From NCBI RefSeq assembly GCF_016612865.1, contig NZ_JAENZZ010000003.1, positions 186,001 to 250,000 on the forward strand: DNA of 64,000 bases. The letters run 5' to 3'. The stretch is from Blastococcus sp. TML/M2B. GTDB lineage: Bacteria; Actinomycetota; Actinomycetes; Mycobacteriales; Geodermatophilaceae. The notes beneath the pieces were generated by a model. It saw only the letters and a program-made list of their open reading frames with translations, was not told the DNA's origin and ran no database searches. Each line of letters starts with the position of its first letter. Position 1 is the first letter of the stretch. Shown one piece after another: positions 33,622 to 52,047 of this stretch. Position numbers and translations under genes: made by a program.

Positions 33622-33668
33622 CCAGCGCTTCCTGCACCATTCCGCCGAACCCGGCGACCATTCCGGCA

Positions 33669-33676
33669 AGTCGACA
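33669..33676. promoter_or_regulatory. GTCGACA motif upstream of chemoreceptor 1
   Basis: AGTCGACA, preceded by CATTCCGG. It differs by one base from the TGTCGACA found before the other chemotaxis units and lies about 150 bp before the start codon, in the 206-bp gap after otsB. Confidence 0.45.
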
Positions 33677-33827
33677 CATGGTCATTCCGGGGACGGTGAC
33701 CACGGCCCGTCGTCACGATTGGGAAATCGGGCTCGAATGGTCTGGTGGAAATGTGGGCGGAGTCACCACACTTTCGCGCACCGACCCGGCCGCCCGGCCG
33801 TTTCCTCCGCTCCCCCGAAGGTGTGCC

Positions 33828-35432
33828 ATGACGACTCCCGCCCCGCCCCGCGCCGCCCGGCGCACCGGCTGGTTCGCCGACCGCCCGCTGGCCGTGAAGT
33901 TCGGGGTGCTCATCGGCGTCGTCGTGCTGGCCCTGGCCGGGCTGGTCGGCGCGGCCCTCCTGGGCAACGCCGCCGTCCGTGACGGGAGCTCGGAGCTCGC
34001 GCACCTCAACGAGGCGGGCGAGCTGGTGCTGCAGCTCGACACCCGCGCCAGCGAGCTCAAGGTGGACGGCTTCAAGGCCGCCGTCCGGCCCGACCCCGAG
34101 GCCCAGCTCGAGGAGCTCGCCGAGGACATCGCCACCCCCGAGGCGCTGCTGGCCGAGCTCGCGCAGGTGCCGCTGACCGGGGACGCCGCCGCCGCGGTCG
34201 ACGGGCTGGCCACGAGCTACGAGGCCTACACCGACGCGATCACCCTCTTCGTGAACGGTGCGATCGTCGACCAGGCGGCCGCCCGGCTCGCCTGGGAGGA
34301 CATCCAGACGGCCAACGACCTGACCGACAGCGCCGTCGGGACGGCGAAGGACGCGCTGCTCGCCGAGAGCGCCGAGGCGCAGGTGCGCCTCGACGACGCG
34401 ATCGCCCGCTCGCAGCTGACCTCGCTCGCCGTGGCCGGCGTCGGCCTGCTGGTGGTCCTCGGCATCAGCCGGCTGACGATGCGCTCGGTGACCCGGCCGG
34501 TGCAGGCGGTCCAGCGCTCGCTGCGGGCGCTGGCCGCCGGCGACCTGACCGTCGGGACCGGCGTGACGTCGAAGGACGAGCTGGGCCGGATGGCCGCCGA
34601 CCTGGACGCCGCCCAGGCGGCGCTGCGCGAGGTGATGGCCGGTGTGGCCGGGTCCGCCCAGGCCGTGGCGGCGTCGTCGGAGGAGCTGTCGGCGTCCTCG
34701 GCGCAGATCTCGGCGTCGGCCGAGGAGACCAGCACGCAGTCGGGCGTGGTCTCCACCGCGGCCGAGGAGGTCTCCCGCAGCGTGGAGACCGTGGCCGCCG
34801 GTGCCGAGCAGATGGGCGCCTCGATCCGGGAGATCGCCAGCAACGCCGCCGAGGCCAGCCAGGTCGCCGCCCGCGCGGTCAGCGCCGCGGAGCACACGAC
34901 GGCCACCGTGGCCAGGCTCGGCGAGTCGTCGGTGGAGATCGGCAACGTCGTGAAGGTGATCACGAGCATCGCGGAGCAGACCAACCTGCTGGCGCTCAAC
35001 GCGACCATCGAGGCCGCGCGGGCCGGCGAGGCGGGCAAGGGCTTCGCCGTCGTCGCCAACGAGGTCAAGGAGCTGGCGCAGGAGACGGCGAAGGCGACCG
35101 AGGACATCGCGCGCCGGGTGAACGCCATCCAGGGCGACACCACCGCGGCGGTGGCGGCGATCGAGGAGATCAGCACGATCGTCGCTCAGATCTCCGACCG
35201 GCAGACCACGATCGCCTCGGCGGTGGAAGAGCAGACGGCGACGACGAACGAGATGAGCCGCTCGGTGCAGGAGGCGGCCTCCGGATCGGGGCAGATCGCG
35301 GAGAACATCGTCAGCGTCTCCACGGCGGCGGACTCCACCACCCAGGCGCTCGCCCAGACGCGCACGGCGGTCGACGAGCTCTCCCGGATGGCGTCGGACC
35401 TGCGCACGACGGTCGGCCGGTTCACCTACTGA
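33828..35432 (+). CDS. Methyl-accepting chemotaxis protein 1
   Basis: Encodes 534 residues from ATG 33828. TM1 is about 22-44, an extracytoplasmic helical sensor (four-helix-bundle type) about 45-195, TM2 about 196-217, HAMP about 218-272, and the rest is the MA signalling domain with the highly conserved tip [37 protein letters not shown]. It detects an unknown small molecule and controls CheA through CheW. The C-terminus is VGRFTY, without a CheR/CheB tether pentapeptide. First of six adjacent receptors; it shares the FADRP(L/I)AVK start with receptor 5. Confidence 0.95.
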
Positions 35433-35499
35433 TGCCGCCCGCCGATCGGCGCACCTGCTGATCGGTTCGACTGCTGATCCGTTTCTACTGCAGAGCACC

Positions 35500-35551
35500 C
35501 GGTCACCGCATTCCCGTTGTCGACAAAGGGACGACGGGAATGCGGTGACCG
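35500..35551. promoter_or_regulatory. 18-bp inverted repeat with TTGTCGACAA at its loop, upstream of chemoreceptor 2
   Basis: The arm CGGTCACCGCATTCCCGT (35500-35517) is perfectly repeated in inverse at 35534-35551. The 16-base loop begins with TGTCGACA (35518-35525). It may terminate receptor 1, or be the regulatory site for receptor 2 about 150-180 bp downstream, or both. Lack of a T-run and the shared motif favour a regulatory role. Confidence 0.6.
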
Positions 35552-35697
35552 ACCATTCTGCGCCGTGTTCTCCGACACGCCTGAGGCGCGTGTGAATCCG
35601 GACCATCCAGTGCCACATCCTGTGCTCGGACGCATTTCGCGTCATTCAGAGAGCGGCTCCCATCCCGCCGCTGCAGCGCCGAGCGAGGAATACCGAC

Positions 35698-37344
35698 ATG
35701 TCGAAGGCACGAAGCGAGCGGTTCCGCGAGAACGGTCCCCCGCGCCACTGGTACCGGGACCGCGGCATCGCGACCCGCATCTTCGCGATCAGCGCCGCGC
35801 TGATGATGGGCACGCTCGCGGCCACCGTGGCGGGCATCCACGGGACGCAGCGGGTGGGCGAGCTGCACGAGCAGGCGACGGCGGCGGTCGGGGTCCAGCG
35901 GACCGTCGAGGCGGCCCGGTACGACCTGCTCTGGGCGGCCAACTGGCAGAACATCACCGCCTGGAACGCCCGGGTGGTCGGCGGCCCGACGGCTGCCGCG
36001 CCGGGCGGGGACAACCTGGCCAACTACCGCGACGGCGCCGAGGGCTTCGAGCGGCTGTTCGACATCGACCGGGCCGAGCTGGACGCGCAGGCCGAGGCCA
36101 GCCTCGACGTCATCCAGGAGAACTGGACGGCGATGAGCGGCTACAACGAGCAGATCTTCGCGCTGTGGGCGCAGGGCCGGCTCGACGAGGGCGACGCGCT
36201 GTCCACCGGCGACAAGTGGGACGTCTTCTACGTCCTGGACCAGGCGATGACCGAGCTGGTCGACTCGGTCGACGCCCGGGTGGCGAGCACCGAGGCCGAG
36301 GTCGTCGACGCCAAGCGGGAGACCGTGCTGCTGTCGGTCGTCGTCTCGCTCGTCGCCTTCGTGCTCGGCGGCGGCCTGGCGTTCGCCGTCTCGCGCGGCA
36401 TCGTGCGCGGCGTGCGCGAGGTGCAGGGCGGCCTGGAGCGCCTCGCAGCCCGCGACCTCACGGTGCGGATGCCGGTCCGTGGTCACGACGAGGTGGGCCA
36501 GATGACGGCGGCGCTCAACACCGCCGCCGACGCCATGTCCTCGACGATGGGCGAGATCGTGGCCGCCGCGGGTGCCGTGGCCGCCTCGTCGGAGGAGCTC
36601 TCCGCGTCCGCCGCCCAGATCTCCGCCGGTGCCCAGGAGACCAGCGCGCAGTCCGGTGTCGTGGCCGGCGCTGCCGAGGAGGTCAGCCGCAGCGTGGAGA
36701 CCGTTGCTGCGGGCGCGGAGCAGATGGGTGCGAGCATCCGGGAGATCGCCAGCAACGCCGCGGAGGCCTCGGAGGTCGCCGGCCGGGCGGTGCTCGCCGC
36801 GGAGCGGACGACGGCCACGGTCGCCAAGCTGGGTGAGTCCTCGGTGGAGATCGGCAACGTCGTGAAGGTGATCACCAGCATCGCCGAGCAGACCAACCTG
36901 CTCGCCCTGAACGCCACGATCGAGGCGGCACGGGCCGGCGAGGCGGGCAAGGGCTTCGCCGTGGTCGCGAACGAGGTCAAGGAGCTGGCCCAGGAGACGG
37001 CGAAGGCGACCGAGGACATCGCCCGCCGGGTGCTGGCCATCCAGGGGGACACCACCGCTGCGGTGAGCGCCATCGAGGAGATCAGCAGCATCGTCGCGCA
37101 GATCTCCGACCGGCAGACCACCATCGCCTCGGCGGTGGAGGAGCAGACGGCGACGACCAACGAGATGTCGCGCTCGGTGCAGGAGGCGGCCTCGGGTTCG
37201 GGACAGATCGCGGAGAACATCACCGGGGTCAGCGCCGCCGCGGACTCCACCAACCAGGCGTTGAGCCAGACCCGCATCGCCGTCGACGAGCTGTCGCGGA
37301 TGGCGGCCGACCTGCGCACCTCCGTCGGGCGGTTCAGCTACTGA
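35698..37344 (+). CDS. Methyl-accepting chemotaxis protein 2
   Basis: Encodes 548 residues from ATG 35698 (CGAGGAA site). A basic cytoplasmic start (1-24), TM1 about 25-47, a sensor rich in Trp and Asn (about 48-208; [21 protein letters not shown]), TM2 about 209-231, HAMP, and an MA domain. The sensor resembles that of receptor 6 in the order of Trp/Asp-Ala-Arg features. The last third is nearly identical in DNA to receptor 3. Ends VGRFSY. Confidence 0.95.
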
Positions 37345-37373
37345 TCCCGGCGGCCTGCGGCCGCGACCCAGCC

Positions 37374-37405
37374 GAGAGCGCACGGCCTCCGGGCCGTGCG
37401 CTCTC
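37374..37405 (+). terminator. 14-bp hairpin after chemoreceptor 2
   Basis: GAGAGCGCACGGCC, TCCG loop, exact complement. It is 30 bp after the stop and is a good intrinsic-terminator stem, without a T-run. Confidence 0.7.
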
Positions 37406-37424
37406 CGCATTCCCGGGGACCGCG

Positions 37425-37474
37425 TGTCGACATGGGGAGAACGGTGAATCGGTAGCGCGTCGACAATTGTCGAC
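37425..37474. promoter_or_regulatory. TGTCGACA and GTCGACAATTGTCGAC palindromes upstream of chemoreceptor 3
   Basis: TGTCGACA at 37425-37432 is followed by a perfect 16-bp palindrome GTCGACAATTGTCGAC at 37459-37474, i.e. two fused half-sites. They lie in the 300-bp gap before receptor 3, 170-220 bp from its ATG, with CATTCCCGGGG just upstream. The rest of the gap holds the terminator of receptor 2 and no credible gene. Confidence 0.6.
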
Positions 37475-37644
37475 TTCGTTGCCGAATCGTGTCGAGGAAT
37501 CGTGTTCCGACACGCACCGGAATGGTTACGGCAACCATTTCCTGCCCTCTAGGTTCTGCCCGGAGCCGGCACCTCCCGGCACTTCCCACTCGTTCGACGA
37601 CGGGTCGGGCAACCCTTGCGAGTGCGGAACGGAAGCGTGTGGCA

Positions 37645-39246
37645 ATGGCGATGGCGAAGGGCAGGAGCGCCCGGAGGGGTCTCACGGACCTGTCGATCTC
37701 GAGCAAGATCCTGGCCTCGGTGGCCGTCGCCGTCGTGGCCGGCACGTCGGTCGGCGCCGTCGGCATCGTCTCGCTGGACGCCGCGGCGGACAACGCCGCG
37801 GACAGCTACGAGCAGAGCACCCGCGGCCTGGTCGAGGTCGGCGAGATGCGCGCCCAGCTGCTGACGCTGCAGCTGGACCAGGCGATGGCCTACCTGCAGC
37901 CCAGCGCCGAGCTGAAGAGCCAGTACTCGACGTCGTCCGCGGCCGCGGGCGTCGCGGTGGGTGACGCCGTGCAGCGCTACCTCGAGACCGACCCCACCCC
38001 GGCGCAGCGCGCGACGGCGCAGGACGTCGTCGACACCTACGCCACGTACACCAACCTGAACGACCAGCTCCTGCGGACCACCGACCAGGAGCTCATGGGC
38101 AGCCTCTACGCCCAGACGCAGCCGCTGATCCCCGAGATCGGCACGGGCATCGACGCCCTGCTGGCCTCCGAGACGGCGGAGGCCGAGGCAGCCGCCGACG
38201 CCGCGGCCGACACCGCATCTTCGGCGCGCGTGCTCCTGATCGCCGTGATGGCGGCCGGCTCGTTGCTGGCCCTGGGGCTCGGCTGGCTGGTGGCGCGGGC
38301 GATCCGGCGCACCCTGCTCGCCGTCCAGCACGTCGCCGAGGGCTTCGCCGCCGGTGACCTCACCCGCAGCACCGGCGTCGACCAGCGCGACGAGCTCGGC
38401 CGCACGGCCGCCGCTCTGGACGCCGCGCAGGTGGAGCTGCGCTCGGTCATGTCCGCCGTCGTCGCGTCGGCGGACGCCGTGGCCGCCAGCTCGGAGGAGC
38501 TGTCGGCGTCGTCGGCGCAGATCTCGGCCTCGGCGGAGGAGACCAGCGCCCAGTCCGGCGTGGTTTCCGGCGCTGCGGACGAGGTGAGCCGCAACGTGCA
38601 GACCGTGGCCGCGGGCGCGGAGCAGATGGGCGCGAGCATCCGGGAGATCGCGTCCAACGCCGCGGAGGCCTCGGAGGTCGCCGGCCGGGCGGTGCTCGCC
38701 GCGGAGCGGACGACGGCCACGGTCGCCAAGCTGGGCGAGTCGTCGGTGGAGATCGGCAACGTGGTGAAGGTGATCACGAGCATCGCCGAGCAGACGAACC
38801 TGCTCGCCCTGAACGCCACGATCGAGGCCGCGCGGGCCGGCGAGGCGGGCAAGGGCTTCGCGGTGGTCGCGAACGAGGTGAAGGAGCTGGCGCAGGAGAC
38901 GGCGAAGGCGACGGAGGACATCGCCCGCCGGGTGCTGGCCATCCAGGGGGACACCACCGCTGCGGTGAGCGCCATCGAGGAGATCAGCAGCATCGTCGCG
39001 CAGATCTCCGACCGGCAGACCACCATCGCCTCGGCGGTGGAGGAGCAGACGGCGACGACCAACGAGATGTCGCGCTCGGTGCAGGAGGCGGCCTCGGGGT
39101 CGGGGCAGATCGCGGAGAACATCACCGGGGTCAGCGCCGCCGCGGACTCCACCAACCAGGCGTTGAGCCAGACCCGCGTCGCCGTCGACGAGCTGTCGCG
39201 GATGGCGGCCGACCTGCGCACCTCCGTGGGACGGTTCAGCTACTGA
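37645..39246 (+). CDS. Methyl-accepting chemotaxis protein 3
   Basis: Encodes 533 residues from ATG 37645 (GTG 37639 and ATG 37651 are alternatives). TM1 about 21-43, helical sensor 44-194 ([31 protein letters not shown]), TM2 about 195-217, HAMP, and an MA domain ending VGRFSY. The signalling domain is almost the same DNA as in receptor 2 while the sensors are unrelated. A longer open frame upstream to 37489 has no typical N-terminus and is ignored. Confidence 0.94.
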
Positions 39247-39278
39247 CCGGCCTCTGAGCTCCTCCGACGTACCATCCG

Positions 39279-39316
39279 CGACGGGGTGGCGGCCCGCACC
39301 GGCCGCCACCCCGTCG
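39279..39316 (+). terminator. 16-bp hairpin after chemoreceptor 3
   Basis: CGACGGGGTGGCGGCC and its exact complement around a six-base loop, 32 bp after the stop codon. Confidence 0.7.
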
Positions 39317-39329
39317 TCGTCGTGACGGG

Positions 39330-39337
39330 TGTCGACA
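39330..39337. promoter_or_regulatory. TGTCGACA motif upstream of chemoreceptor 4
   Basis: TGTCGACA about 165 bp before the ATG, right after the receptor 3 terminator. Downstream DNA (AATGCGGTCACGGGCCATTTTCTGCG split over 39352-39377) resembles the matching part of the receptor 2 upstream region. Confidence 0.5.
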
Positions 39338-39496
39338 AACGGTCGCGCACAATGCGGTCACGGGCCATTTTCTGCGTCGTTGCGGCACTCGGTGCCACGC
39401 GGGGCTCACGATCGGACGGAATGGCGCGGCGGCCCGCCGCGCCGGTGCCGACCGAGGCGGTCGGTGCCACCCGTACGACGAAGGACGGCAGCACCC

Positions 39497-41107
39497 ATGC
39501 GCACCACCCCCCGATCGATGGCCGACCGCTGGGCCGACCGGTCCGTCGCCACCAAGGTGCTGACGGCGGTGAGCGTCGGCACGCTGGTCGCGATCCTCAT
39601 CGGCGTGCTGGGCATCGCCTCGCTGAGCTCGGCCGCGCAGCGAACCGAGGTCATGTACGAGGCCAATGTTCAGGGCGTCTCGAATGCCGCGGCCCTGCGC
39701 AACGCCCTGCAGAACGTGCGGCTGGCCAGCCGGGACGCCGCCCTCGCGATCGATCCCGCGACCGCCATGAACGAGCTGGAGGCCGTGCCCGGCTACGTGA
39801 GCCGGTTCGACGAGGTGCTCGCCGACTACCGCGCCGGCGCGGCGTCGACCGAGACCGCGGCGCTGCTCGACGACGTGGAGGCCGGCTTCGACGAGTACGT
39901 CGCCGGGATGGACACCGTCGCGGCGCTCCTGCAGGCGCAGGACCTGCCTGGCTGGCGGCAGTACAACGGCACCGTCCTCAAGCCGGTCTCCGACCGCGTG
40001 CAGGCCAGCGCGCAGGCGCTGCTCGACCTCGAGCGCGCCGAGGCCGCCGATGCGGCGACCGCGGGCCGCGACGAGGCAGGTTCGGCCCGGACCCTCTCCG
40101 TGGTCGTCATGGCCGTCGGTGCGGTCGTCGCCTTCGGTCTCGGCCTGGTCGTCGCCCGGGGAATCGCCCGCAACGTGCGACGCGTCCAGGACGTGGCGAC
40201 GGCGCTGGCCGACGGCGACCTGACCCGCACCAGCGGTCTCGCCTCCGAGGACGAGCTCGGGCGCATGGGGCAGGCGCTGGACACGGCCGTGGGGTCGCTG
40301 CGCGAGGTCATGGCCGGTGTGGTCGGTTCGGCCGACGCGGTCGCGGCGTCGTCGGAGGAGCTGTCGGCGTCGTCGGCGCAGATCGCCGCCGGTGCGGAGG
40401 AGACCTCGGCCCAGGCGGGGGTCGTCTCCGGCGCCGCCGAGGAGGTGTCCCGCAACGTGCAGACCGTGGCCGCCGGTGCGGAGCAGATGGGTGCGTCGAT
40501 CCGCGAGATCGCGTCCAACGCCGCGGAGGCCAGTGACGTGGCCGCCCGCGCGGTGGTCGCGGCGGAGACGACCACCGCCACCGTGGCCAAGTTGGGCGAG
40601 TCCTCGGCGGAGATCGGCAACGTGGTGAAGGTCATCACCTCGATCGCCGAGCAGACCAACCTGCTGGCGCTGAACGCGACGATCGAGGCGGCGCGGGCCG
40701 GTGAGGCGGGCAAGGGCTTCGCCGTGGTCGCCAACGAGGTGAAGGAGCTGGCGCAGGAGACGGCGAAGGCGACCGAGGACATCGCCCGCCGGGTGCAGTC
40801 GATCCAGGGCGACACGACGGCGGCGGTGGCCGCGATCGAGGAGATCAGCACGATCGTGGCGCAGATCTCCGACCGGCAGACCGCGATCGCCTCGGCGGTG
40901 GAGGAGCAGACGGCGACCACCAACGAGATGTCGCGCTCGGTGCAGGAGGCCGCGGCCGGCTCGGGCCAGATCGCGGAGAACATCACCGGCGTCTCCACGG
41001 CGGCGGACTCGACCACGCAGGCGCTGACCCAGACGCGGACGGCGGTGGACGAGCTCTCCCGGATGGCCGCCGACCTGCGCACCACGGTGGGCCGCTTCAC
41101 CTACTGA
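39497..41107 (+). CDS. Methyl-accepting chemotaxis protein 4
   Basis: Encodes 536 residues from ATG 39497 (AAGGA upstream). TM1 about 19-41, a four-helix-bundle MCP sensor about 42-202 ([36 protein letters not shown]), TM2 about 203-225, HAMP, MA domain, end VGRFTY. About 495 bp at the 3' end differ from receptor 6 at only three bases I can find, including the bases after the stop. Confidence 0.95.
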
Positions 41108-41114
41108 ACCGCGC

Positions 41115-41150
41115 GGGAGGGGTGACGACGAATGGGTCGCCACCCCTCCC
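41115..41150 (+). terminator. 10-bp hairpin after chemoreceptor 4
   Basis: GGGAGGGGTG (41115-41124) pairs with CACCCCTCCC (41141-41150) around a 16-base loop, just after the stop. Confidence 0.55.
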
Positions 41151-41197
41151 GTCGCACCATTCCGTACACCGATCGACCGGTGACGGGAATGGCTGCT

Positions 41198-41205
41198 TGT
41201 CGACA
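41198..41205. promoter_or_regulatory. TGTCGACA motif upstream of chemoreceptor 5
   Basis: TTGTCGACA follows GGGAATGG by a few bases, about 130 bp before the GTG. An imperfect inverted pair CCATTCCGT / ACGGGAATGG precedes it, echoing the arms at receptor 2. Confidence 0.5.
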
Positions 41206-41331
41206 TCCGCGAGGAGGTCGCCGACCTTTCTCCGGCGTCGAGTTGCGACACGCGCCGCAATAGCGGATCGCACCGTCCGAAATGCCCCAGGCTCCTGCTC
41301 GTCCGACCCGTCAGTCACAGCAGGAGCTCCC

Positions 41332-42930
41332 GTGAACAGCAGCCCCACCCCCCGCCGTCGGTGGTTCGCCGACCGGCCCATCGCGGTCAAGATCGGGGCG
41401 GCCATCGCGGTGCTCGCGCTGGTGGCCGTGACGATGACCGTCATCGCGGTCACGCGGATTGGCTCGCTGAGCGCGGCCTCGGCCGAGATCAACACCAACG
41501 TCACCTCGCTGGCGGACCTGGCCAACATCCAGCGCAGCTGGCAGGGCGACCGGGCCCGCTACAACCAGTACGCGCTCGCCGACGAGACGACGCGCGCGGC
41601 GCTGGAGACCGACCTGGCGGAGCGGCGTCAGACCATCGAGCAGCAGCTCGACGACTACGCCCAGTACACGGTCAACAAGGAGGCCTTCGCGGTCTTCCGC
41701 GGCCACCTGGACGACTACTACGCGGCCGCCGAGGGCCAGCTCCTGCCGGCGGCCCGGGCCGGGGACCTCGTGACCGCGGGACAGGTGATCGCCGGACCGC
41801 TCCAGGACGCCGCGGACCTGGCCATGGACGAGTACCAGGCCGCTCAGGACCGGCGGGTGGCCGCGGGCCAGGAGGACACCGATGCGGCGGAGAACATGGC
41901 GTCGTCGGCCGTGCTCACGCTGTGGATCGCCCTCACCGCGGGTGTCCTGCTGGCGGGCGCACTGGCCTTCTACGTCGTCCGGCAGATGGTCCGCACGGTG
42001 AAGGACGTGCAGGCATCCGTGGTCGCGCTGGCCGAGGGTGACCTGACCGCCGTGCCGCCCGTGCACTCGCGGGACGAGCTGGGCCGGATGGCCGAGGCGC
42101 TGGGCGAGGCCCAGAGCCAGCTGCGGCTCGTGATGGCCGGCGTGGTGAGCTCGGCCGACGCCGTCGCGGCCTCGTCCGAGGAGCTCTCCGCCTCGTCGGC
42201 GCAGATCTCGGCCTCGGCCGAGGAGACCAGTGCGCAGTCGGGCGTGGTCTCCGGTGCCGCCGAGGAGGTCTCGCGCAGCGTGCAGACCGTCGCCGCGGGC
42301 GCGGAGCAGATGGGCGCCTCGATCCGCGAGATCGCCAGCAACGCCGCGGAGGCCTCGGAGGTGGCCGCCCGCGCGGTCACCGCAGCCGAGACGACGACGG
42401 CCACGGTCACGAAGCTGGGGGAGTCCTCGGTGGAGATCGGCAACGTGGTGAAGGTGATCACCAGCATCGCCGAGCAGACCAATCTGCTGGCGCTCAACGC
42501 GACCATCGAGGCCGCACGTGCCGGTGAGGCGGGCAAGGGCTTCGCCGTCGTCGCGAACGAGGTCAAGGAGCTCGCCCAGGAGACGGCCAAGGCCACGGAG
42601 GACATCGCCCGCCGGGTGCTGGCCATCCAGGGCGACACCACCGCCGCGGTGAGCGCGATCGAGGAGATCTCGAGCATCGTCGCGCAGATCTCCGACCGGC
42701 AGACCACGATCGCCAGCGCGGTCGAGGAGCAGACGGCGACCACCAACGAGATGTCGCGCTCGGTCCAGGAGGCCGCCTCCGGGACCGTTCAGATCGCGGA
42801 GAACATCACCGGCGTCTTGACGGCGGCGAACTCCACCACGCAGGCGCTGACCCAGACGCGCACCGCGGTCGACGAGCTCTCCCGCATGGCCGCCGACCTG
42901 CGCACCAGCGTGGGCCGCTTCACCTACTGA
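41332..42930 (+). CDS. Methyl-accepting chemotaxis protein 5
   Basis: Encodes 532 residues from GTG 41332 (CAGGAG site). TM1 about 16-40, four-helix-bundle sensor ([27 protein letters not shown]), TM2 about 198-220, HAMP, and an MA domain ending VGRFTY. In the last helix it reads [21 protein letters not shown] where the other five have (S/A)GSGQIAENI(T/V)(G/S)VS(T/A)AADST, so it has local substitutions in an otherwise near-invariant stretch. Confidence 0.95.
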
Positions 42931-42939
42931 GGGACGTCA

Positions 42940-42975
42940 GGGCGGGGGTGACCGGCACGCCGGTCACCCCCGCCC
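42940..42975 (+). terminator. 17-bp hairpin after chemoreceptor 5
   Basis: GGGCGGGGGTGACCGGC (42940-42956), loop AC, exact complement (42959-42975). The strongest stem in the island. The 101-bp gap to receptor 6 holds no TGTCGACA. Confidence 0.75.
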
Positions 42976-43031
42976 ACGACGCCTGCTGACCCTCCCGGCA
43001 CATCGACCCGCTCCAGAAGGACAGAACCGCC

Positions 43032-44669
43032 ATGCCGCACAGCACGACCAGCCCAGCACGTCGGAGGAGCCTCGGCGTCCGCAGCAAGATCCTCGCCGTG
43101 GGCGCCGCGGGGATGGCGGCCGCCGTGGCGGTGGGCGGCTTCGCGATCGCCGGCCTCGGCAGCGCCGGCGACAGCCTCGACGAGGTCACCGCCCTCGCGG
43201 ACGCGGCCGACTTCGTGCAGAGCGTCCAGACCTACAACGCCGACGTCAGCGGGTGGCAGGTCTCCTACGCGTGGGACGCCCGCCGGCTGGGCGGCGTCGC
43301 CGCGGTGCAGCCGACCGAGGGTGGCAACCGGGCCGGCTTCCTCGACATCAGCGAGAAGCTCCGGGTGGAGCTCTCGGACGCCCCGACGGAGGTGCTCACC
43401 GACGACGAGCGCGCCGTCGTCGAGCAGATCGACGCCCGGTGGGACGACTTCTTCGCGCTGGACGACCAGGCCGCCGCCCTGTACGCGCAGGACACCCCGG
43501 AGGCCATCGACGCCGCGGACCAGGTGATCCTGCAGGACGGGTTCGGCGTCTACTACGACCTGCTGGACCTGACGAGCACCCTCCGGGAGTCGCTCGACGA
43601 CCGCCTCGCCGACGCCAGGACGGCGGCGGACGAGCAGCAGGCACGGACCACCCAGATCATGGTGGGCGTCATCGTCCTGGGCGGCGCGCTCGTCCTCGCC
43701 GTCGCGCTCGCCGTGGCGCGGCGCATCACCCGGCCGCTCGGCGCGGTCGTCGACGTGGCCACCGCCCTGGCGGCCGGCGACCTGACCCGGACCAGCGGCG
43801 TCGTGCAGGGCGACGAGGTCGGCCGGACCGCGGCGGCGCTCGACGAGGCCATCGGCACCCTGCGGGTGGTGCTGGGCCAGGTGGCCGGCTCGGCCGATGC
43901 GGTGGCCGCGTCGTCGGAGGAGCTGTCGGCGTCGTCGGCGCAGATCTCGGCGTCGGCGGAGGAGACCAGCGCGCAGTCCGGCGTGGTGTCCAGCGCTGCC
44001 GAGGAGGTGTCGCGCAGCGTCCAGACCGTCGCTGCGGGTGCGGAGCAGATGGGTGCCTCGATCCGCGAGATCGCGTCCAACGCCGCGGAGGCCAGTGACG
44101 TGGCCGCCCGCGCGGTGACCGCCGCGGAGCGGACCACCGCCACGGTGAGCAAGCTGGGGGAGTCCTCGGCCGAGATCGGCAACGTGGTGAAGGTCATCAC
44201 CTCGATCGCCGAGCAGACCAACCTGCTGGCGCTGAACGCGACGATCGAGGCGGCGCGGGCCGGTGAGGCGGGCAAGGGCTTCGCCGTGGTCGCCAACGAG
44301 GTGAAGGAGCTGGCGCAGGAGACGGCGAAGGCGACCGAGGACATCGCCCGCCGGGTGCAGTCGATCCAGGGCGACACGACGGCGGCGGTGGCCGCGATCG
44401 AGGAGATCAGCACGATCGTGGCGCAGATCTCCGACCGGCAGACCACGATCGCCTCGGCGGTGGAGGAGCAGACGGCGACCACCAACGAGATGTCGCGCTC
44501 GGTGCAGGAGGCCGCGGCCGGCTCGGGCCAGATCGCGGAGAACATCACCGGCGTCTCCACGGCGGCGGACTCGACCACGCAGGCGCTGACCCAGACGCGG
44601 ACGGCCGTGGACGAGCTCTCCCGGATGGCCGCCGACCTGCGCACCACGGTGGGCCGCTTCACGTACTGA
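43032..44669 (+). CDS. Methyl-accepting chemotaxis protein 6
   Basis: Encodes 545 residues from ATG 43032 (AGAAGGA site). TM1 about 19-44, sensor about 45-207 ([25 protein letters not shown]), TM2 about 208-232, HAMP, MA domain, end VGRFTY. The sensor shares a Trp..WDARRLGG pattern with receptor 2 ([11 protein letters not shown]), suggesting a related ligand fold. The signalling domain is nearly identical in DNA to receptor 4. It is the only receptor without a TGTCGACA site in the gap before it. Confidence 0.95.
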
Positions 44670-44673
44670 ACCG

Positions 44674-44695
44674 CGCCGTCCCACCCGGGACGGCG
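44674..44695 (+). terminator. 9-bp hairpin after chemoreceptor 6
   Basis: CGCCGTCCC (44674-44682), ACCC loop, complement (44687-44695), immediately after the stop and before the cheA leader. Confidence 0.5.
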
Positions 44696-44720
44696 GGTGC
44701 CGATAACAGCTCAGACGGCC

Positions 44721-44761
44721 GCGGCGGGCGGCGGATTCACCTTGACTCCCCCGCCCGCCGC
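44721..44761 (+). promoter_or_regulatory. Leader hairpin before cheA
   Basis: GCGGCGGGCGG (44721-44731) and its complement CCGCCCGCCGC (44751-44761) around a 19-base AT-richer loop, 58 bp before the cheA GTG. Possibly a leader structure or terminator; the role is unknown. Confidence 0.3.
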
Positions 44762-44818
44762 GCCGAAACACCACCGGGACGAACGCGTCCCGGCGCGAAG
44801 CAGAGAGAAGGACAACCC

Positions 44819-47290
44819 GTGGACGGTCTGGACGACATCGTCGAGGAGTTCCTGGTCGAGAGCCACGAGAACCTCGACCAGCTCGACTCCGACCTGGTGG
44901 CGCTGGAGCAGGAGCCCAACTCCCGCGAGCGGCTGTCCAGCATCTTCCGGACCATCCACACCATCAAGGGCACCAGCGGCTTCCTGGCCTTCAACCGGCT
45001 GGAGGAGGTCACGCACGTCGGCGAGAACATGCTCTCCCGGCTGCGGGACGGCGAGCTGGCGCTGACGCCGCACCGCACCACGGTGCTGCTGCAGATGGTC
45101 GACACGGTGCGCGCGCTGCTGGCCTCCATCGAGGCCAGCGGCGGCGAGGGCTCGGTCGACGTCTCGGCCGCCGTCGCTGCGGTCACCGCCGCGATGGAGG
45201 ACGCCCCGGCGCCGGCCGCCGCGCCGGTCGAGGCAACCGTCGAGGCCCCCGCCGAGCCGGTCGCAGCCGCGACCGCCACCACGACGGCGACCACGACGGC
45301 GACCAAGCCCGCCGCCAAGCCCGCCGCCAAGACCGCCCCCAAGACCGCCGCCAAGGCACCCGCCAAGCGCGCCCCTCGCGGCAAGGCCGCCGTCCCCGCG
45401 CCGGCCCCCGTACCCGCCGACGAGCTCATCGAGGACGTGACCACCCCCGTGCCCGAGATCCGGTCCGAGGAGCCCACCCCGGAGCCGACCCCCGATCCGG
45501 CCCTGGACGCCACCCCGGACGCCCCCGAGCAGGAGGCGCCCGCGGCCGAGGGCACCGGCGGTCAGCCGCGCCGCGCCGTCGCCGACAGCACCATCCGGGT
45601 CGACGTCGACCTGCTCGACGAGCTGATGCTGCTCGTGGGCGAGCTGGTGCTCACCCGCAACCAGATCGTGCAGAACGTCGCGCGGCAGACCGACACCGAC
45701 CTGATCCGGGCCTCGCAGCGGCTGAACCTCATCGCCAGCGAGCTGCAGGAGGGCGTCATGAAGACGCGCATGCAGCCGATCGACCACATCTGGTCCAAGC
45801 TCCCGCGGGTCGTCCGCGACCTCGGGGCGAACCTGAAGAAGTCGATCCGCCTGGAGATGGAGGGTCGCGAGACCGAGCTCGACAAGACCCTGCTCGAGGC
45901 GGTCAAGGACCCGCTGACCCACCTGGTCCGCAACTCCGTCGACCACGGCATCGAGGCGCCCGAGGCGCGCAAGAAGGTCGGCAAGCCCGCCGAGGGCGTG
46001 CTCACCCTGCGCGCCCGCCACGAGAGCGGCCAGGTCGTCGTCGAGGTCGCGGACGACGGCGCCGGCATCGACCCGCAGAAGGTCGGCGCCAAGGCCGTCG
46101 AGCGCGGCGTCGTCACGCCCGAGGCGCTCGCCCGCATGAGCCCGCAGGACATCCTGCAGATGATCTTCCTGCCGGGCTTCTCCACCGCCGCCGCGGTCAC
46201 CAACGTCTCCGGTCGCGGCGTCGGCATGGACGTGGTCAAGACCAACATCGAGTCCATCGGCGGCACCATCGAGGTCGAGTCCGACCCCGGCATCGGCACC
46301 GTCTGCCGGCTGCGCATCCCGCTGACCTTGGCGATCGTCCCGGCGCTGACCGTCGAGTGCGCCAGCGACCGCTACGCCATCCCGCAGATCAGCCTGCAGG
46401 AGCTGGTCAGCCTGGACGCCGAGAAGGCCGCCAACGCCGTCGAGGAGGTCGGCGGCGCGCAGGTCTACCGGCTGCGCGGCGAGCTGCTCCCCCTCGTCCG
46501 GCTCACCGACGTCCTGGGCCTGACCTCCGAGCGGCACGACGGCCACGTCGTCATCGCCGTCCTCCGCTCCGAGGGCCGGCGCTTCGGCCTGGTCGTGGAC
46601 CGGGTCATCAACACCGAGGAGATCGTCGTCAAGGCGGTCGGCGGGCAGCTCAAGCAGATCGGGCTCTACTCCGGCGCCACCGTGCTGGGTGACGGCACGG
46701 TTGCGCTCATCCTCGACGTGCAGGCCCTGGCCCGCCGCGCCCTGCGCACCGAGACCGCCGAGCGCCAGGAGTCCCGCGCGTCGGTGAGCTCCGCGGCCGC
46801 CGCCGAGACCGAGCGGCAGCGGATGCTGCTGGCCTCCATCGGCGGGGGGCGCCGCGTGGCGATCCCGCTGGACACCGTCACCCGGCTCGAGCAGGTCCGG
46901 GCCGACGCGGTGGAGAAGGTCGGCAACCGCGAGGTGGTGCAGTACCGCGGCGCGATCCTGCCGATCGTCCGGCTGGACCGGCACCTGGGCGCCTACGGCG
47001 AGAGCGACCGCGAGGTGCTCGAGGTGATCGTCTACGCCGACTCCGGCCGCAGCGTCGCGATCGTCGTCGAGGAGATCCTCGACATCGTCGACGGCGAGGC
47101 CGCGGTGCGCAGCGACATCGACGACCTGGGCCTGCTGGGCTCCGCCGTCCTGGGGGACCGCGTGACCGAGCTGCTCGACGTCCGCGCCGCCATCCTCGCG
47201 GCCGACCCGGCGTTCTACGCCGGCCACGCCGCCTCCTCCCCCGACCCCGCGACGCCGGCCGGCGTCCCCGGCTCCTACCTGGAGGTCTGA
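44819..47290 (+). CDS. cheA: Chemotaxis histidine kinase CheA (with two CheW-like domains)
   Basis: Encodes 823 residues from GTG 44819 (AGAAGGA site). HPt domain about 1-110 with phospho-acceptor His47 in FRTIHTIKGTSGF. An Ala/Pro/Lys/Thr-rich linker about 125-255 carries KPAAK-type repeats. The dimerisation helices follow (RVDVDLLDELMLLVGELVLTRNQI), then the HATPase domain (HLVRNSVDHGIEAPEAR, VADDGAGI, GRGVGMDVV, GTVCRLRIPLTLAI) and two successive CheW-like domains (about 510-650 and 660-800). No P2 CheY-binding domain is evident in the linker. The doubled CheW domain is less usual. It phosphorylates CheY and CheB. Confidence 0.95.
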   Translation: MDGLDDIVEEFLVESHENLDQLDSDLVALEQEPNSRERLSSIFRTIHTIKGTSGFLAFNRLEEVTHVGENMLSRLRDGELALTPHRTTVLLQMVDTVRALLASIEASGGEGSVDVSAAVAAVTAAMEDAPAPAAAPVEATVEAPAEPVAAATATTTATTTATKPAAKPAAKTAPKTAAKAPAKRAPRGKAAVPAPAPVPADELIEDVTTPVPEIRSEEPTPEPTPDPALDATPDAPEQEAPAAEGTGGQPRRAVADSTIRVDVDLLDELMLLVGELVLTRNQIVQNVARQTDTDLIRASQRLNLIASELQEGVMKTRMQPIDHIWSKLPRVVRDLGANLKKSIRLEMEGRETELDKTLLEAVKDPLTHLVRNSVDHGIEAPEARKKVGKPAEGVLTLRARHESGQVVVEVADDGAGIDPQKVGAKAVERGVVTPEALARMSPQDILQMIFLPGFSTAAAVTNVSGRGVGMDVVKTNIESIGGTIEVESDPGIGTVCRLRIPLTLAIVPALTVECASDRYAIPQISLQELVSLDAEKAANAVEEVGGAQVYRLRGELLPLVRLTDVLGLTSERHDGHVVIAVLRSEGRRFGLVVDRVINTEEIVVKAVGGQLKQIGLYSGATVLGDGTVALILDVQALARRALRTETAERQESRASVSSAAAAETERQRMLLASIGGGRRVAIPLDTVTRLEQVRADAVEKVGNREVVQYRGAILPIVRLDRHLGAYGESDREVLEVIVYADSGRSVAIVVEEILDIVDGEAAVRSDIDDLGLLGSAVLGDRVTELLDVRAAILAADPAFYAGHAASSPDPATPAGVPGSYLEV

Positions 47291-47291
47291 C

Positions 47292-47756
47292 GTGACCCTC
47301 ACGACCGACTCCGCCGCGGACGCGGTGGCCCCGGCCACCAGCGGCCAGCTGGCCACCTTCCGCCTGGACGGCGACCTCTACGGCGTCGAGGTCGCGCACG
47401 TGCAGGAGGTGCTGCGCAGCCAGCAGCTCACCCGCGTGCCGCTGGCGCCCAGCGCCGTCGCCGGCCTGATCAACCTGCGCGGCCAGGTGGTGACGGCGAT
47501 CGAGCTGCGCGAGCGGCTCGGCCGCCCGGCCCGCCCCGAGGGCACCGACGCCGTCGTCATCGTCGTCCGGCTCGACGGCGAGGCGGTGAGCCTGCTCGTG
47601 GACTCCATCGCCGACGTCGTCGACGTGGACGCCGCGGACTTCGAGGCGCCGCCGGACACGCTCGAGGGTCCGGCCCGCGACCTGATCCGCGGCGCCTACA
47701 AGCTCGACGGCTCGCTGCTGCTGGCGCTGGACGTGCACAAGGCCGTCAGCGCCTAG
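47292..47756 (+). CDS. cheW: Chemotaxis coupling protein CheW
   Basis: Encodes 154 residues from GTG 47292, one base after the cheA stop. It has the CheW beta-barrel pattern: LATFRLDGDLYGVEVAHVQEVLRSQQLTRVPLAPSAVAGLINLRGQVVTAIELRERLG and SLLVDSIADVVDVD. It links the receptors to CheA. Confidence 0.95.
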   Translation: MTLTTDSAADAVAPATSGQLATFRLDGDLYGVEVAHVQEVLRSQQLTRVPLAPSAVAGLINLRGQVVTAIELRERLGRPARPEGTDAVVIVVRLDGEAVSLLVDSIADVVDVDAADFEAPPDTLEGPARDLIRGAYKLDGSLLLALDVHKAVSA

Positions 47757-47906
47757 TCACTCAATGCAACCGTCCGGTGACGCATCTTCACCGGACACGC
47801 GGCCGTCATCCCGACATGGTCCTGCCATGGGGTGACGGCCGCGTGGCGTTCCGCAGTCGTTACCGCCAGCATGGGGTGTCCGATCCCCGGTCCTGGAGGC
47901 GCTGCC

Positions 47907-48803
47907 GTGCCCTACACGTTGGTCAGTGCCGCCACCCTCGGGTTCGACCTGGTCCGCCTCCCGGCCGGCCGCCAGGTGGCGGGCGTGCTGCTCTCCGCCC
48001 TGCAGGCCGACGACGCCGCGCTGGCCCGCCTCGGCGCCGCACACCCGGCCCGCGGGCTGGAGCACGGCCAGCGGCTGACCCTCGCCGTCCGGTCCCGCCG
48101 GGCCCGCGAGATGGCCGTCTCCGTGCCGCACGTGCGCACCGCCGCGGCCGGGGCCCGCGCCGCCGGCGATCGGGCCGCGATCCTGGTCGAGCAGCTCGAG
48201 CAGGGCACGATCGGTGACGCCCCCACCCTGGAGCGGCTGCTCCGCGACGACGTGCTGAGCGGCGAGCACCCTGCCGCCGGCCTGCTCGACGCCGGCCTGC
48301 TCGCCGAGGCCGCCGACGTCCTCGCCGACGCGGCCGTCGGCTACTGGGCCGCGGGCGTGCTCCCGCCCCTGGTGCGCCGCGAGCTCACCGCCTCCTACGA
48401 CCGGGTGGCCGACACCGCGCCCCCGGCCGGCCCGGAGAGCCTCGACCTGGGTGCGCCCGGGGCCGAGCTGACCGCGTTCCTCGACGGGCTGCGCGCGCTG
48501 GACGACGCCGGCCGGGCCCGCTGGCGGGCCGCGGTGGACGAGGGCCGCGCCGAGCGCCGCCCGTGGGCCACCGCCATGCACGAGGCGTCCTGGGCCGCGC
48601 ACGTCTCCGGCCGGACCCGCGTGCTGGCCACCGCGCAGCTGCACGCCGTCCAGGCCTTCCTCGACGCCGGCTTCGACCGGCACGACGGCGCGGCCGGTGC
48701 GTGGAACGCCGTCGCCGGGTGCGTGCAGGGCATCGCGATGGCCGACCTGCTCGACGAGGGCGCGCTGACCGTCCTGCGCGCGCCCCTCACCCGCGCCGCC
48801 TGA
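47907..48803 (+). CDS. Unknown protein encoded between cheW and cheB
   Basis: Encodes 298 residues from GTG 47907 with a clear GGAGG at 47895-47899. The sequence is mostly helical and Ala/Leu/Asp-rich, without signal peptide, membrane segment or recognised motif. Notable conserved-looking parts are VPYTLVSAATLGFDLVRLPAGRQVAGVLL at the start, AVGYWAAGVLPPLVRRELTASYDRV in the middle and WATAMHEASWAAHVSGRTRVLATAQLHAVQAFLDAGF near the end. Its place inside the chemotaxis island suggests a part in sensing or motility, but that is only inference. It has its own ribosome site, 150 bp after cheW. Confidence 0.8.
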   Translation: MPYTLVSAATLGFDLVRLPAGRQVAGVLLSALQADDAALARLGAAHPARGLEHGQRLTLAVRSRRAREMAVSVPHVRTAAAGARAAGDRAAILVEQLEQGTIGDAPTLERLLRDDVLSGEHPAAGLLDAGLLAEAADVLADAAVGYWAAGVLPPLVRRELTASYDRVADTAPPAGPESLDLGAPGAELTAFLDGLRALDDAGRARWRAAVDEGRAERRPWATAMHEASWAAHVSGRTRVLATAQLHAVQAFLDAGFDRHDGAAGAWNAVAGCVQGIAMADLLDEGALTVLRAPLTRAA

Positions 48804-48812
48804 GCCCCCTCC

Positions 48813-48852
48813 CCCGCCGTCGCGGGCCGCGGCCGGGGCTGCCGACGGCGGG
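48813..48852 (+). terminator. 10-bp hairpin after the unknown island gene
   Basis: CCCGCCGTCG (48813-48822) and CGACGGCGGG (48843-48852), ten bases after the stop. The 356-bp gap to cheB otherwise holds the TTGTCGACAA site and no credible gene. Confidence 0.5.
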
Positions 48853-48905
48853 AACCCGCAGGTCCGCGGGCTGCTCCCGAAAGGGCCGGGGCCATCGTCC
48901 CGGAA

Positions 48906-48915
48906 TTGTCGACAA
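48906..48915. promoter_or_regulatory. TTGTCGACAA palindrome upstream of cheB
   Basis: A perfect 10-bp palindrome about 245 bp before the cheB GTG, within the 356-bp gap. It is the same core as in the receptor gaps, indicating that cheB starts a second co-regulated transcription unit. Confidence 0.55.
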
Positions 48916-49159
48916 GGCACCGAGATGCCTTTTCGACCGCCATTCGTGCGGTCATCCGGGAATTGCGTAACGGTTGCGTCCGTCGCCTTTTCTTTCCCCG
49001 TGGTGCGGTCGATGCTCCTGGTGCGGATGTGACGACGGGAAAGCCCCGGAATGCGCATCCCGCAGTCGGCCGGCCCTGCTCAAGAAGCGGGGGAACGGTG
49101 CCGATGGAGCAGTGATCAGCCTGTCGGGCTGCGCACCGGCAGGAACCAGGAGGACGCAC

Positions 49160-50287
49160 GTGAAGCCCATCCGGGTGATGGTGGTCGACGACTCGGTCGT
49201 CGTCCGCAAGATCGTCACCGACGTGCTGTCCGAGGACCCGGGCATCGAGGTGGTGGGCACCGCCGTCAACGGCAAGGTGGCCCTGAGCAAGCTCGCCGCG
49301 CTGGCCCCCGACCTGATCACGATGGACATCGAGATGCCGGAGATGAACGGCATCGAGGCGGTCCGCGCGATCCGCGGCAGCCGCAACCGCGTCCCGATCA
49401 TCATGTTCAGCACGCTCACCGAGCGCGGCGCGACCGCCACCCTCGACGCGCTCTCCGCGGGCGCCAACGACTACGTCACCAAGCCGGCCAACGTCGGCAG
49501 CGTCGCGCAGTCCATGGAGAGCGTCCGCGAGCAGCTCATCCCCAAGATCAAGGCGCTCACCGGCCGCCCCGTGGGCCCGGTCCGCACCGCCGCGCCGATC
49601 CCCCCGCCGCGCCCGGCCCCGCCGCGCGCCACCCCGACCAAGAAGCCCGCCGTCCTGGTGATCGGCTCCTCCACCGGTGGACCGGAGGCGCTGGCCAAGC
49701 TGCTGCCGCAGCTGCCGGCGACCCTCCCGGTGCCGGTCCTGGTCGTGCAGCACATGCCCCCGGTCTTCACCCGCCAGTTCGCCCAGCGCCTCGACCGGCT
49801 CTGCGCGCTGCGGGTGGTCGAGGCGACCGACGGCGTGCCCCTGCAGCCGGGCACCGTGCACCTGGCCCCCGGCGACCACCACCTGCTGGTCCGCCCCGGC
49901 CGCGGCGCGCACACCACCGGCCTGACCCAGGGCCCGCCGGAGAACTTCTGCCGCCCCGCCGTCGATCCGTTGTTCCGCTCCGCCGTCGCCGCCTACGACG
50001 GCGCGGTGCTCGGCCTCGTGCTCACCGGCATGGGCTCCGACGGCCGCAACGGCGCCGCCGAGATCCGGGCCGCCGGCGGCACCGTGCTCGCCCAGGACCA
50101 GGCCACCTCGGTCGTCTGGGGCATGCCCGGCGCGGTCACCCAGGCCGGCCTGGCCGACGAGGTCCTGCCGCTGGACCGCATCGCCGAGGCGCTCGGCCGC
50201 CACCTGTCGGGCGTCCCCGCCCGCGTCCCCTCCCCCGCCACCGCACCGGTGCCCGGCCGCGCCGTCCTGTCCGGAGGCATCCGATGA
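49160..50287 (+). CDS. cheB: Protein-glutamate methylesterase/deamidase CheB
   Basis: Encodes 375 residues from GTG 49160, with CAGGAGGA just upstream. Receiver domain about 1-120 with phospho-Asp56 (MDIEMPEMNG), a Pro-rich linker (about 135-165), and the methylesterase domain with catalytic Ser in IGSSTGGPEAL, His in VVQHMPPVFT and Asp in TGMGSDGRNG. It removes methyl groups from receptor glutamates for adaptation. The ATGA overlap links it to cheR. Confidence 0.95.
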   Translation: MKPIRVMVVDDSVVVRKIVTDVLSEDPGIEVVGTAVNGKVALSKLAALAPDLITMDIEMPEMNGIEAVRAIRGSRNRVPIIMFSTLTERGATATLDALSAGANDYVTKPANVGSVAQSMESVREQLIPKIKALTGRPVGPVRTAAPIPPPRPAPPRATPTKKPAVLVIGSSTGGPEALAKLLPQLPATLPVPVLVVQHMPPVFTRQFAQRLDRLCALRVVEATDGVPLQPGTVHLAPGDHHLLVRPGRGAHTTGLTQGPPENFCRPAVDPLFRSAVAAYDGAVLGLVLTGMGSDGRNGAAEIRAAGGTVLAQDQATSVVWGMPGAVTQAGLADEVLPLDRIAEALGRHLSGVPARVPSPATAPVPGRAVLSGGIR

Positions 50288-51108
50288 CCCTCACCACGAC
50301 GAGCTTCGACTGGGTGCGCCAGCTGGTGCACAAGGAGAGCGCGATCGTCCTCCAGCCCGGCAAGGAGTACCTGGTGGAGGCGCGGCTGCTGCCTATCGCC
50401 CGCCAGGCCGGCCTGAGCGACGTCTCCACCTTCGTCGAGAAGGTGCGGACCCGTCCGGACGCCGACAGCACCCGCCGGATCGTCGAGGCGCTCACCACGA
50501 ACGAGACCTCGTGGTTCCGCGACGGTGACCCGTTCACGGCGCTCACCTCCACGGTGCTGCCCTCGCTGCTCAGCGCGCGCGGCCCCAACGAGCGGCTGCA
50601 GATCTGGTCGGCGGCCTGCTCGAGCGGGCAGGAGGCGTACACGATCGCGATGCTCCTGGAGGACGCGCTGCCCAACGCCGCGTCCCGGATCTCGATCACC
50701 GCCACCGACATCTCCCGCGAGATGGTCGAGCGCACCCGGGCCGGCCGGTTCAGCCAGCTCGAGGTCAACCGCGGGCTGCCCGCCCCGATGCTGGTCCGGC
50801 ACTTCACCCGGGCCGGCAACGAGTGGGAGGTCGCGCCGGCGCTGCGCCGCATGGTGACGGCGAGCCAGTGCAACCTGGCCGCGCCGCTGCCCCGGATGGG
50901 CCCGTTCGACGTGGTCTACCTGCGCAACGTGCTCATCTACTTCGACCTGCCCACCAAGCAGGCGATCCTCCGCCGGGTCCGCGAGCTCATGCGTCCCGAC
51001 GGCTGGCTGTTCCTCGGCGCGGCTGAGACCACGCTCGGGGTGGACGACTCCTGGTAGCGGGTCGTCGTCGGCCGCAGCTCCGCCTACCGCCCGTCGAAGG
51101 GGAAGTGA
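50284..51108 (+). CDS. cheR: Chemotaxis methyltransferase CheR (internal amber codon near 3' end)
   Basis: The frame from ATG 50284 stops at TAG 51055-51057 after 257 residues. It then continues in the same frame for 16 sense codons (RVVVGRSSAYRPSKGK) to TGA 51106-51108, which overlaps the cheY start. CheR proteins normally continue DDSWERV; here Glu (GAG) is TAG. The N-terminal helical domain (FDWVRQLVHKESAIVLQPGKEYLVEARL) and SAM-binding fold (TTNETSWFRD, WSAACSSGQEAYTIAM, DVVYLRNVLIYFD) are intact. It methylates receptor glutamates. The shortened protein lacks only the C-terminal tail, so activity is uncertain rather than lost. Confidence 0.92.
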
Positions 51109-51500
51109 TGCGTGCTCTGGTGATCGACGACTCGCGCGCGATGCGCCGGATCGTCTCCGGGATCCTCGGGGATCTCGGCTACGAGACACAGCAGGCCGGG
51201 CACGGCCGCGAAGGCCTGGACGTGCTCGAGGGCCTGGGGCGCGAGGAGCTGCCCGACCTGGTCTGCGTCGACTGGAACATGCCGGTCATGGACGGGCTGC
51301 AGTTCGTCTCCGCCGTCCGCTCCAACCCGGGCTGGCGCTCGATGACGATCATGATGGTCACCTCCGAGAGCGAGCACACGCAGATCGTGCGCGCCCTGGC
51401 CGCCGGCGCCCACGAGTACGTGATCAAGCCGTTCACCGCCGACGCCATCCGCGACAAGCTCGCGCTGCTCGGCCTGCTCCCCCAGGAGGCCGCGCTGTGA
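51108..51500 (+). CDS. cheY: Chemotaxis response regulator CheY (1)
   Basis: Encodes 130 residues from ATG 51108 (GTG 51105 possible), site AAGGGGAAG. A single receiver domain: acidic pair Asp7-Asp8, phospho-Asp55 in VDWNMPVMDG, MVTSES switch Thr/Ser, and Lys in YVIKPF. It carries the signal from CheA to the motor. Followed by GTGA overlap with the first cheX-like gene. Confidence 0.95.
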   Translation: MRALVIDDSRAMRRIVSGILGDLGYETQQAGHGREGLDVLEGLGREELPDLVCVDWNMPVMDGLQFVSAVRSNPGWRSMTIMMVTSESEHTQIVRALAAGAHEYVIKPFTADAIRDKLALLGLLPQEAAL

Positions 51501-52012: not shown

Positions 52013-52047
52013 CCCGCACCTGCTCGCCGGAAGAACGAGGTACCGCT

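Follow-up and report, generated by a model that had tools for sequence, protein, structure and literature searches.

The 64,000-nucleotide stretch of the genome of Blastococcus sp. TML/M2B analysed here (contig NZ_JAENZZ010000003.1, positions 186,001 to 250,000; hereafter the window) carries a chemotaxis island on its plus strand, and the subject of this study is an 8-bp palindrome, TGTCGACA, that stands upstream of several of the island's genes. Six receptor genes with MCP signalling domains, R1 to R6 (33828..44669), are followed by cheA and cheW (44819..47756) and then by cheB, cheR, cheY, cheX, a second cheY and the gene for a 163-aa protein that has no Pfam match (49160..52898); Pfam confirms the receptors R1-R6, CheA, CheW, CheB and CheR. 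Some Geodermatophilaceae, a family of soil bacteria, switch between motile rods and non-motile aggregates. The available part of PMC9686282 mentions a motile rod stage in B. aggregatus and contains no promoter work on chemotaxis in this family, the control of whose chemotaxis genes seems to be unstudied. A literature search for the exact 8-mer TGTCGACA gave nothing relevant by title among the matches listed.

In the window the palindrome occurs at 35518..35525, 37425..37432, 39330..39337, 41198..41205 and 48907..48914, upstream of R2, R3, R4, R5 and cheB respectively, just as the original prediction had it, and nowhere else; R6, which lies close behind R5, has no box, and neither have cheA and cheW downstream of R6. 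Fewer than one copy had been said to be expected, and the five copies indeed compare with an expectation of 0.78: across 100 dinucleotide shuffles of the window the mean was 0.78 and the largest number 4, so that five were never reached. The near-site AGTCGACA before R1 (33669..33676, one mismatch) and the fused form GTCGACAATTGTCGAC before R3 (37459..37474) are also present, and the distance from box to start codon, claimed to be about 130-245 bp, is about 126-245 bp from the coordinates. Two further details stood only in part: the 10-mer extension TTGTCGACAA is exact at 35517 and at 48906, where it encloses the cheB box, but not at the other sites, and the GGAATG or CATTCC said to lie beside the box is found within about 50 bp of it at R1, R2 and R5 and upstream at R3 but is 88 bp off at R4 and 141 bp off at cheB.

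Strong support for the palindrome as a regulatory site that marks chemotaxis transcription units comes from 80 related loci, the top 80 among 210 relatives found in a CheA search. Geodermatophilaceae account for 75 of these loci, by label or, for three records with odd labels (L076, L090, L115), by a CheA identity of 77-86%, and the other five come from two Nocardioides, a Planobispora, a Planomonospora and one unassigned metagenome-assembled genome. The 80 loci hold 139 copies of TGTCGACA, of which 136 are intergenic, and among palindromes of equal base composition it ranks first, the next best having 14 intergenic copies. On the plus strand the box is found at the promoters of receptors (75/148), cheB (28/55) and cheA (21/76), and before none of the 171 other promoters (56 of orf47907, 32 of orf53603, 7 of TPS, 1 of CheY2 and 75 others). 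No promoter has the box in the five loci from outside the family, where a single copy, in L137, is coding. Receptors lead in most Blastococcus and Geodermatophilus loci and cheA leads in Modestobacter, Klenkia and Goekera, and a cheA at the head of its unit carries the box in 20 of 32 cases, a cheA behind a receptor in 1 of 43. The neighbours across the divergent promoters of boxed cheA and cheB genes differ and are mutually unrelated by eye. Since the box tracks the first gene of the unit and these neighbours look unrelated, the box belongs to the chemotaxis unit. The same distribution bears on the idea that tandem duplication of receptor genes together with their upstream DNA left the motif behind as a relic, which we regard as hardly credible: R1-R6 are tandem paralogues, as such an origin would have it, but the upstream regions of R1-R5 and cheB showed no extended similarity by eye when aligned, and the presence of the motif before cheB and leading cheA contradicts it.

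For the anatomy of the promoters, the sets of upstream regions were thinned by k-mer similarity (receptors from 149 to 143, cheB from 55 to 50, cheA from 76 to 62). Motif fitting, whose counts favour the motif by construction, places the box in about 119 of the 143 receptor upstream regions and GGTCACCGACCTTTCT in about 108-112. The elements follow one another in a fixed order at fixed spacing, namely the palindrome (as one of two abutting 8-bp boxes), GGTCACCGACC, CGACACG and the -10, which is of the TAnnnT type and follows the palindrome at about 89 or 97 bp. From the start of the box to GGTCACC the distance, in the 102 promoters having both, is 17-19 bp in 44, 25-27 bp in 36 and never 20-24 bp, being scattered elsewhere in 22. 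CGACACG starts 28-30 bp past GGTCACC in 52 instances, and a TAnnnT-like -10 lies at about +71 of GGTCACC, its A and T invariant in an alignment (A1) of 60 of the 78 receptor promoters that passed both motif thresholds. These 78 promoters contain the proximal GACAC in 63 cases, the -10 in 58 and both in 51, and shuffles of them yield a -10 in a mean of 11.7 and at most 24. No conserved -35 was found in the 143 upstream regions. CGACACG or its reverse complement is present in 95 of the 143, which in the window include those of R2, R3 and R5 and not those of R1 and R4. For the 94 copies of CGACACG in receptor upstream regions, a TAnnnT located 20-69 bp downstream falls at 41-43 bp in 30 of 30 cases, and the looser NAnnnT, in the same range, in 72 of 161.

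The two spacings differ in what adjoins the box, with (A)ATGGCGYCA abutting it upstream in the 18-bp class and WGnnGMC abutting it downstream in the 26-bp class. With the second box scored against TGnCGnCA, the top offset among 34 is -8 in the 18-bp class (mean match 4.38 of 6 letters against 1.68; at least 5 of 6 letters in 20/39) and +8 in the 25-27 class (mean match 2.86; at least 5 of 6 in 3/36), the second box of the 26-bp class being weak. Because the second box lies at -8 in one class and at +8 in the other, the two-box site keeps one position, and in our reading the two spacings may represent a single 16-bp site whose strong box can occupy the one slot or the other. Apart from this array, GGAATGG/CCATTCC forms a second, dispersed motif that occurs in both orientations with no single fixed place, in 67/143 receptor upstream regions against 1/75 other promoters; it is seen before receptors, cheB and leading cheA, in the window for example at 33638, 33659 and 33683.

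In the window itself, all on the plus strand, the box of R2 is followed by GGTGACC at 35544..35550 (26 bp past the box start), by a proximal CGACAC of the WhiA-type GACAC kind at 35573..35578 and by a candidate -10, CATCCT, at 35616..35621, 43 bp past CGACAC. R3 has a degenerate GGTGAAT 18 bp on from its box, CGACAC at 37508..37513 and the candidate -10 TAGGTT at 37550..37555, 42 bp farther, and R5 has GGTCGCC at 41216 (18 bp), CGACAC at 41246..41251 and the candidate -10 CAGGCT at 41288..41293, again after 42 bp. The near-site of R1 lies 26 bp before GGTGACC at 33695, with the candidate -10 CACACT (33767..33772) at the conserved position GGT+72; at R4, GGTCACG stands at 39356 (26 bp) and CGGCAC at 39383. 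The R2 palindrome also lies within the loop between the arms of an inverted repeat, 16 bp long and perfect (35501-35516/35535-35550; GGTCACCGCATTCCCG, window 35501-35550), which is possibly the terminator of R1 too.

Promoters of the FliA type lie near the start codons of cheB and cheA, by motif fit in 50/50 and 49/62 upstream regions, and by count with TGCCGAT in 38/50 and CTCAAG in 41/50 for cheB and TGCCGAT in 38/62 for cheA. That of cheB in the window reads CTCAAG-N15-GCCGAT (49079..49105, elements at 49079 and 49100), and visual inspection showed FliA-like sequences upstream of flagellar genes, of a flagellin gene and of one orphan receptor gene in the same genome. The pattern CTCAAG-N15/16-GCCGAT is nearly absent from the upstream regions of island receptors (CTCAAG 5/143, TGCCGAT 2/143). 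Farther upstream of cheB stand the box, GGTCACC and AATTGCGTAACGATT, whose motif fits 33 of the 50 non-redundant cheB upstream regions and is represented in the window by GCGTAACG at 48965..48972, and together these are probably a second promoter. Receptors and core chemotaxis genes appear to be partly under different sigma control, tied by the palindrome. Such an arrangement does not support the earlier suggestion that TGTCGACA is itself part of an alternative-sigma promoter, which is now very improbable: several transcription units of one function are marked, as it would predict, but at receptor promoters the palindrome is followed some 90 bp farther on by a separate, conserved TAnnnT-type -10, FliA-type promoters are found downstream of it at cheB and cheA, and a perfect palindrome in two spacings is unlike a -35/-10 pair.

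The position of the site also helps to decide between activation and repression. Were the palindrome the operator of a dedicated repressor, one that keeps chemotaxis silent while the cells grow in their non-motile form, its tandem abutting 8-bp palindromes would find a parallel in operators such as the MetJ boxes, and the placing of the R2 site inside an inverted repeat would be in keeping; the rigid placing of the box some 90 bp ahead of the -10, with two fixed elements in between, suits an activator better than a roadblock, and a search of the genome with Pfam RHH_1 (PF01402) gave no match at E 0.001, for a fold that is hard to detect and with the other RHH families outside this search. We consider a repressor quite unlikely. 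As for other regulators, the two unassigned proteins of the island have no Pfam match, none stood out in the flagellar cluster besides a sigma factor (Pfam having been applied to 10 of the 44 predicted proteins and others judged by eye, which is not a full exclusion), and none of the genes divergent from boxed chemotaxis genes resembles a DNA-binding regulator by eye. Two proteins of the island recur beyond it: a 298-aa protein between cheW and cheB (window 47907-48803) and the 163-aa protein behind the second cheY (window 52407-52898), which is CheX/CheC-like by eye, have no Pfam or NCBIfam match and are found in most loci long enough to include their position, for the former among Geodermatophilaceae chemotaxis loci.

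The genome of the window (G000, 4.11 Mb), in which genes were called with our own script trained on window genes, contains TGTCGACA 32 times and the reversed pattern 7 times. Were copies as dense in the 13.4-kb island as in the remainder of the genome, 0.09 would be expected there (P of five or more, 4e-8), and to that extent a genome scan spoke against random scatter, but 27 copies lie elsewhere, 18 of them intergenic and 9 coding, so the motif is not confined to the island. Of the enrichment at flagellar genes that the original prediction had proposed to look for, the scan gave no sign in the flagellar cluster (C1:600-626 kb), where it found no site, and its notion of an island-specific regulator comes close to the mark: a receptor-promoter profile run over the genome (150 of 6562 first-look candidates scored) is strong at R5 (E 9e-15) and R2 (E 1.6e-13), with all others at E > 0.004, and single palindromes also occur upstream of both sepX and a WhiB-like gene, close to dnaN and at other places. 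By pattern search the pair of palindrome and GGTCACC was found in 19 of 30 genomes, our own included; of the 30 pattern-search loci fetched, from plus-strand matches only, 17 were read, and 11 adjoin receptor genes, 2 precede a secreted peptidase gene (one M23 by Pfam) and 4 lie elsewhere. The block before the peptidase gene in L170 (M23 by Pfam) and L179 is a conserved sequence of the form TGTCGACATACCGA...GGTSRCCGACC, and similar blocks match by pattern in G003, G005 and G013.

Among the genes near single palindromes, two were tried as conserved partners and rejected. Two WhiB-like matches exist in the genome, and an exact palindrome lies near the WhiB-like gene in just 4 of 23 best matches, our own genome included; an HTH_17 gene showed no conserved site. 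Copies near dnaN and dnaB (L025, L026; G000:C3:133411, 170469) lie amid DnaA-box-like sequences and may be unrelated to chemotaxis; a DnaA-box reading fits these sites and not the chemotaxis sites. An identical sequence, inverted, near the starts of contigs C2 (L010, G000:C2:4471) and C4 (L027, G000:C4:3254) is either a repeat or an assembly overlap.

One of the other genomic palindromes lies upstream of the cell-division gene sepX (NF050101) and opens a comparison with the regulators of cell division. GACAC is given as the WhiA motif in PMC3781837, and sepX as an activated WhiAB target in Streptomyces in PMC8748795; by title, the matches listed in a literature search on WhiA and chemotaxis included no work on chemotaxis control. 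In the window's genus (apparently Blastococcus), the sepX upstream region has CGACAC 42-43 bp before a TAnnnT in 22 of 22 readable genomes, one of the 23 genomes having a split sepX gene. A second CGACAC is present 84-86 bp before the -10 in 15 of the 22, which is the position of the 18-class palindrome at receptors, and this distal site is TGTCGACA, in the form TGTCGACAC, in five genomes of the genus, the window's included, and AGTCGACA in one. Outside the genus, where 12 of 30 sepX loci were unreadable by script, the spacing from CGACAC to the -10 is 44 bp in 4 of 5 loci of a family with 7-10 Mb genomes (probably Streptomyces) and in 3 of 4 loci of another family.

The coincidence of the distal sites, in both position and sequence, lends some weight to the view that the palindrome is a distal site of WhiA itself, in which overlapping GACA half-sites replace the distal CGACAC of sepX and there would be no dedicated regulator. 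The symmetry of the receptor sites makes this unlikely: a GTCGAC core is invariant in 73 aligned receptor sites with spacings of 18, 25 and 26 bp (sites chosen by motif, at least one of five other receptor sites having GTCGAT), a C follows TGTCGACA in no more than 3 of 34 sites of the 25 and 26 classes, the palindrome occupies two slots 8 bp apart, and WhiA is described as a monomer on asymmetric GACAC (PMC3781837).

The motif, its class specificity, its spacing and phasing and the core geometry that it shares with sepX are computationally established, and on balance they incline us to read TGTCGACA as a distal regulator site on WhiA/WhiB-type sigma-A promoters, one that would link chemotaxis to the division programme. 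The palindrome would be the strong half of a two-box site (2 x 8 bp, TGnCGnCA) bound by a dimeric regulator, in all likelihood an activating one, and fixed upstream of a primary-sigma (sigma-A) receptor promoter whose core would consist of the proximal CGACACG, about 42 bp and TAnnnT, with no conserved -35. WhiB contacts sigma-A; WhiA may sit on CGACACG, and WhiB may act with sigma-A on a promoter that has no -35. In Geodermatophilaceae the palindrome would co-activate the receptor genes and, through the second promoter, the cheB unit (or cheA where it leads), with FliA separately driving cheB and cheA, and chemotaxis would be co-expressed with cell division. From the sequences we infer binding of WhiA and WhiB at CGACACG, the identity of the protein on the palindrome, a second promoter of cheB, and an effect that is activating and not repressing. 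The likeness in layout to promoters that WhiA/WhiB use for cell division suggests that the cell may turn on chemotaxis and division jointly. A stronger version, that in this family WhiA and WhiB directly drive the receptor genes together with a dimeric two-box activator, a single step then yielding both division and the chemosensory equipment of the motile cell, is offered tentatively, as somewhat less likely than not. Should the receptor promoters prove to be of the WhiA/WhiB kind with an additional switch, motility would be tied to division regulators conserved in Actinobacteria, and the exact bases would be open to mutational test.

Several observations weigh against this interpretation. 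In the window, no proximal CGACAC was found at R1, and R4 has no -10 at the expected place and no CGACAC in good form; next to the boxes of cheB and cheA no adjoining second one is conspicuous. One intergenic copy in the related loci adjoins the minus-strand orf52961m and no chemotaxis gene, and the 18 intergenic copies outside the island lie near diverse genes. The non-chemotaxis control promoters, a small control, contain 6 CGACACG and no TAnnnT match. On the side of sepX, the -10 was found with a pattern chosen after the sequences had been viewed, the geometry is seen in 0 of 9 readable loci of a probably mycobacterial family, and the receptor-trained profile matches the sepX core promoter poorly, its five best matches covering it in part and lying on the opposite strand, with a single weak match (L263, E 0.59) on the promoter strand. 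Since the profile finds sepX only partially, what the two kinds of promoter have in common is their geometry and short elements and not their sequence as a whole. In Streptomyces, moreover, sepX is still expressed, at a reduced level, without WhiA or WhiB (PMC8748795).

Several known systems offer a comparison. FliA-type flagellar and chemotaxis promoters (CTCAAG-N15/16-GCCGAT) are present here at cheB and cheA and differ in being nearly absent from the island receptors. MetJ operators are tandem 8-bp boxes, and the site described here likewise joins a strong 8-bp palindromic box directly to a weak one, but it differs in sequence and in its likely activator position, and the RHH_1 search found no match. 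The BldM group I box TCACcCgnncGgGTGA, as given in PMC4125116, shares TCACC-like letters with GGTCACCG, but it is a 16-bp palindrome outside the consensus found here and TGTCGACA is unrelated to it. From the WhiA/WhiB-dependent sigma-A promoters such as that of sepX in Streptomyces, the receptor promoters differ in their target, which is chemotaxis and not division, and in the addition of the palindrome, the second 8-bp box and GGTCACCGACCWTTCT; they resemble them in the GACAC placed 41-44 bp before a TAnnnT -10 and, as an added likeness, in a second CGACA-containing site about 85 bp before the -10.

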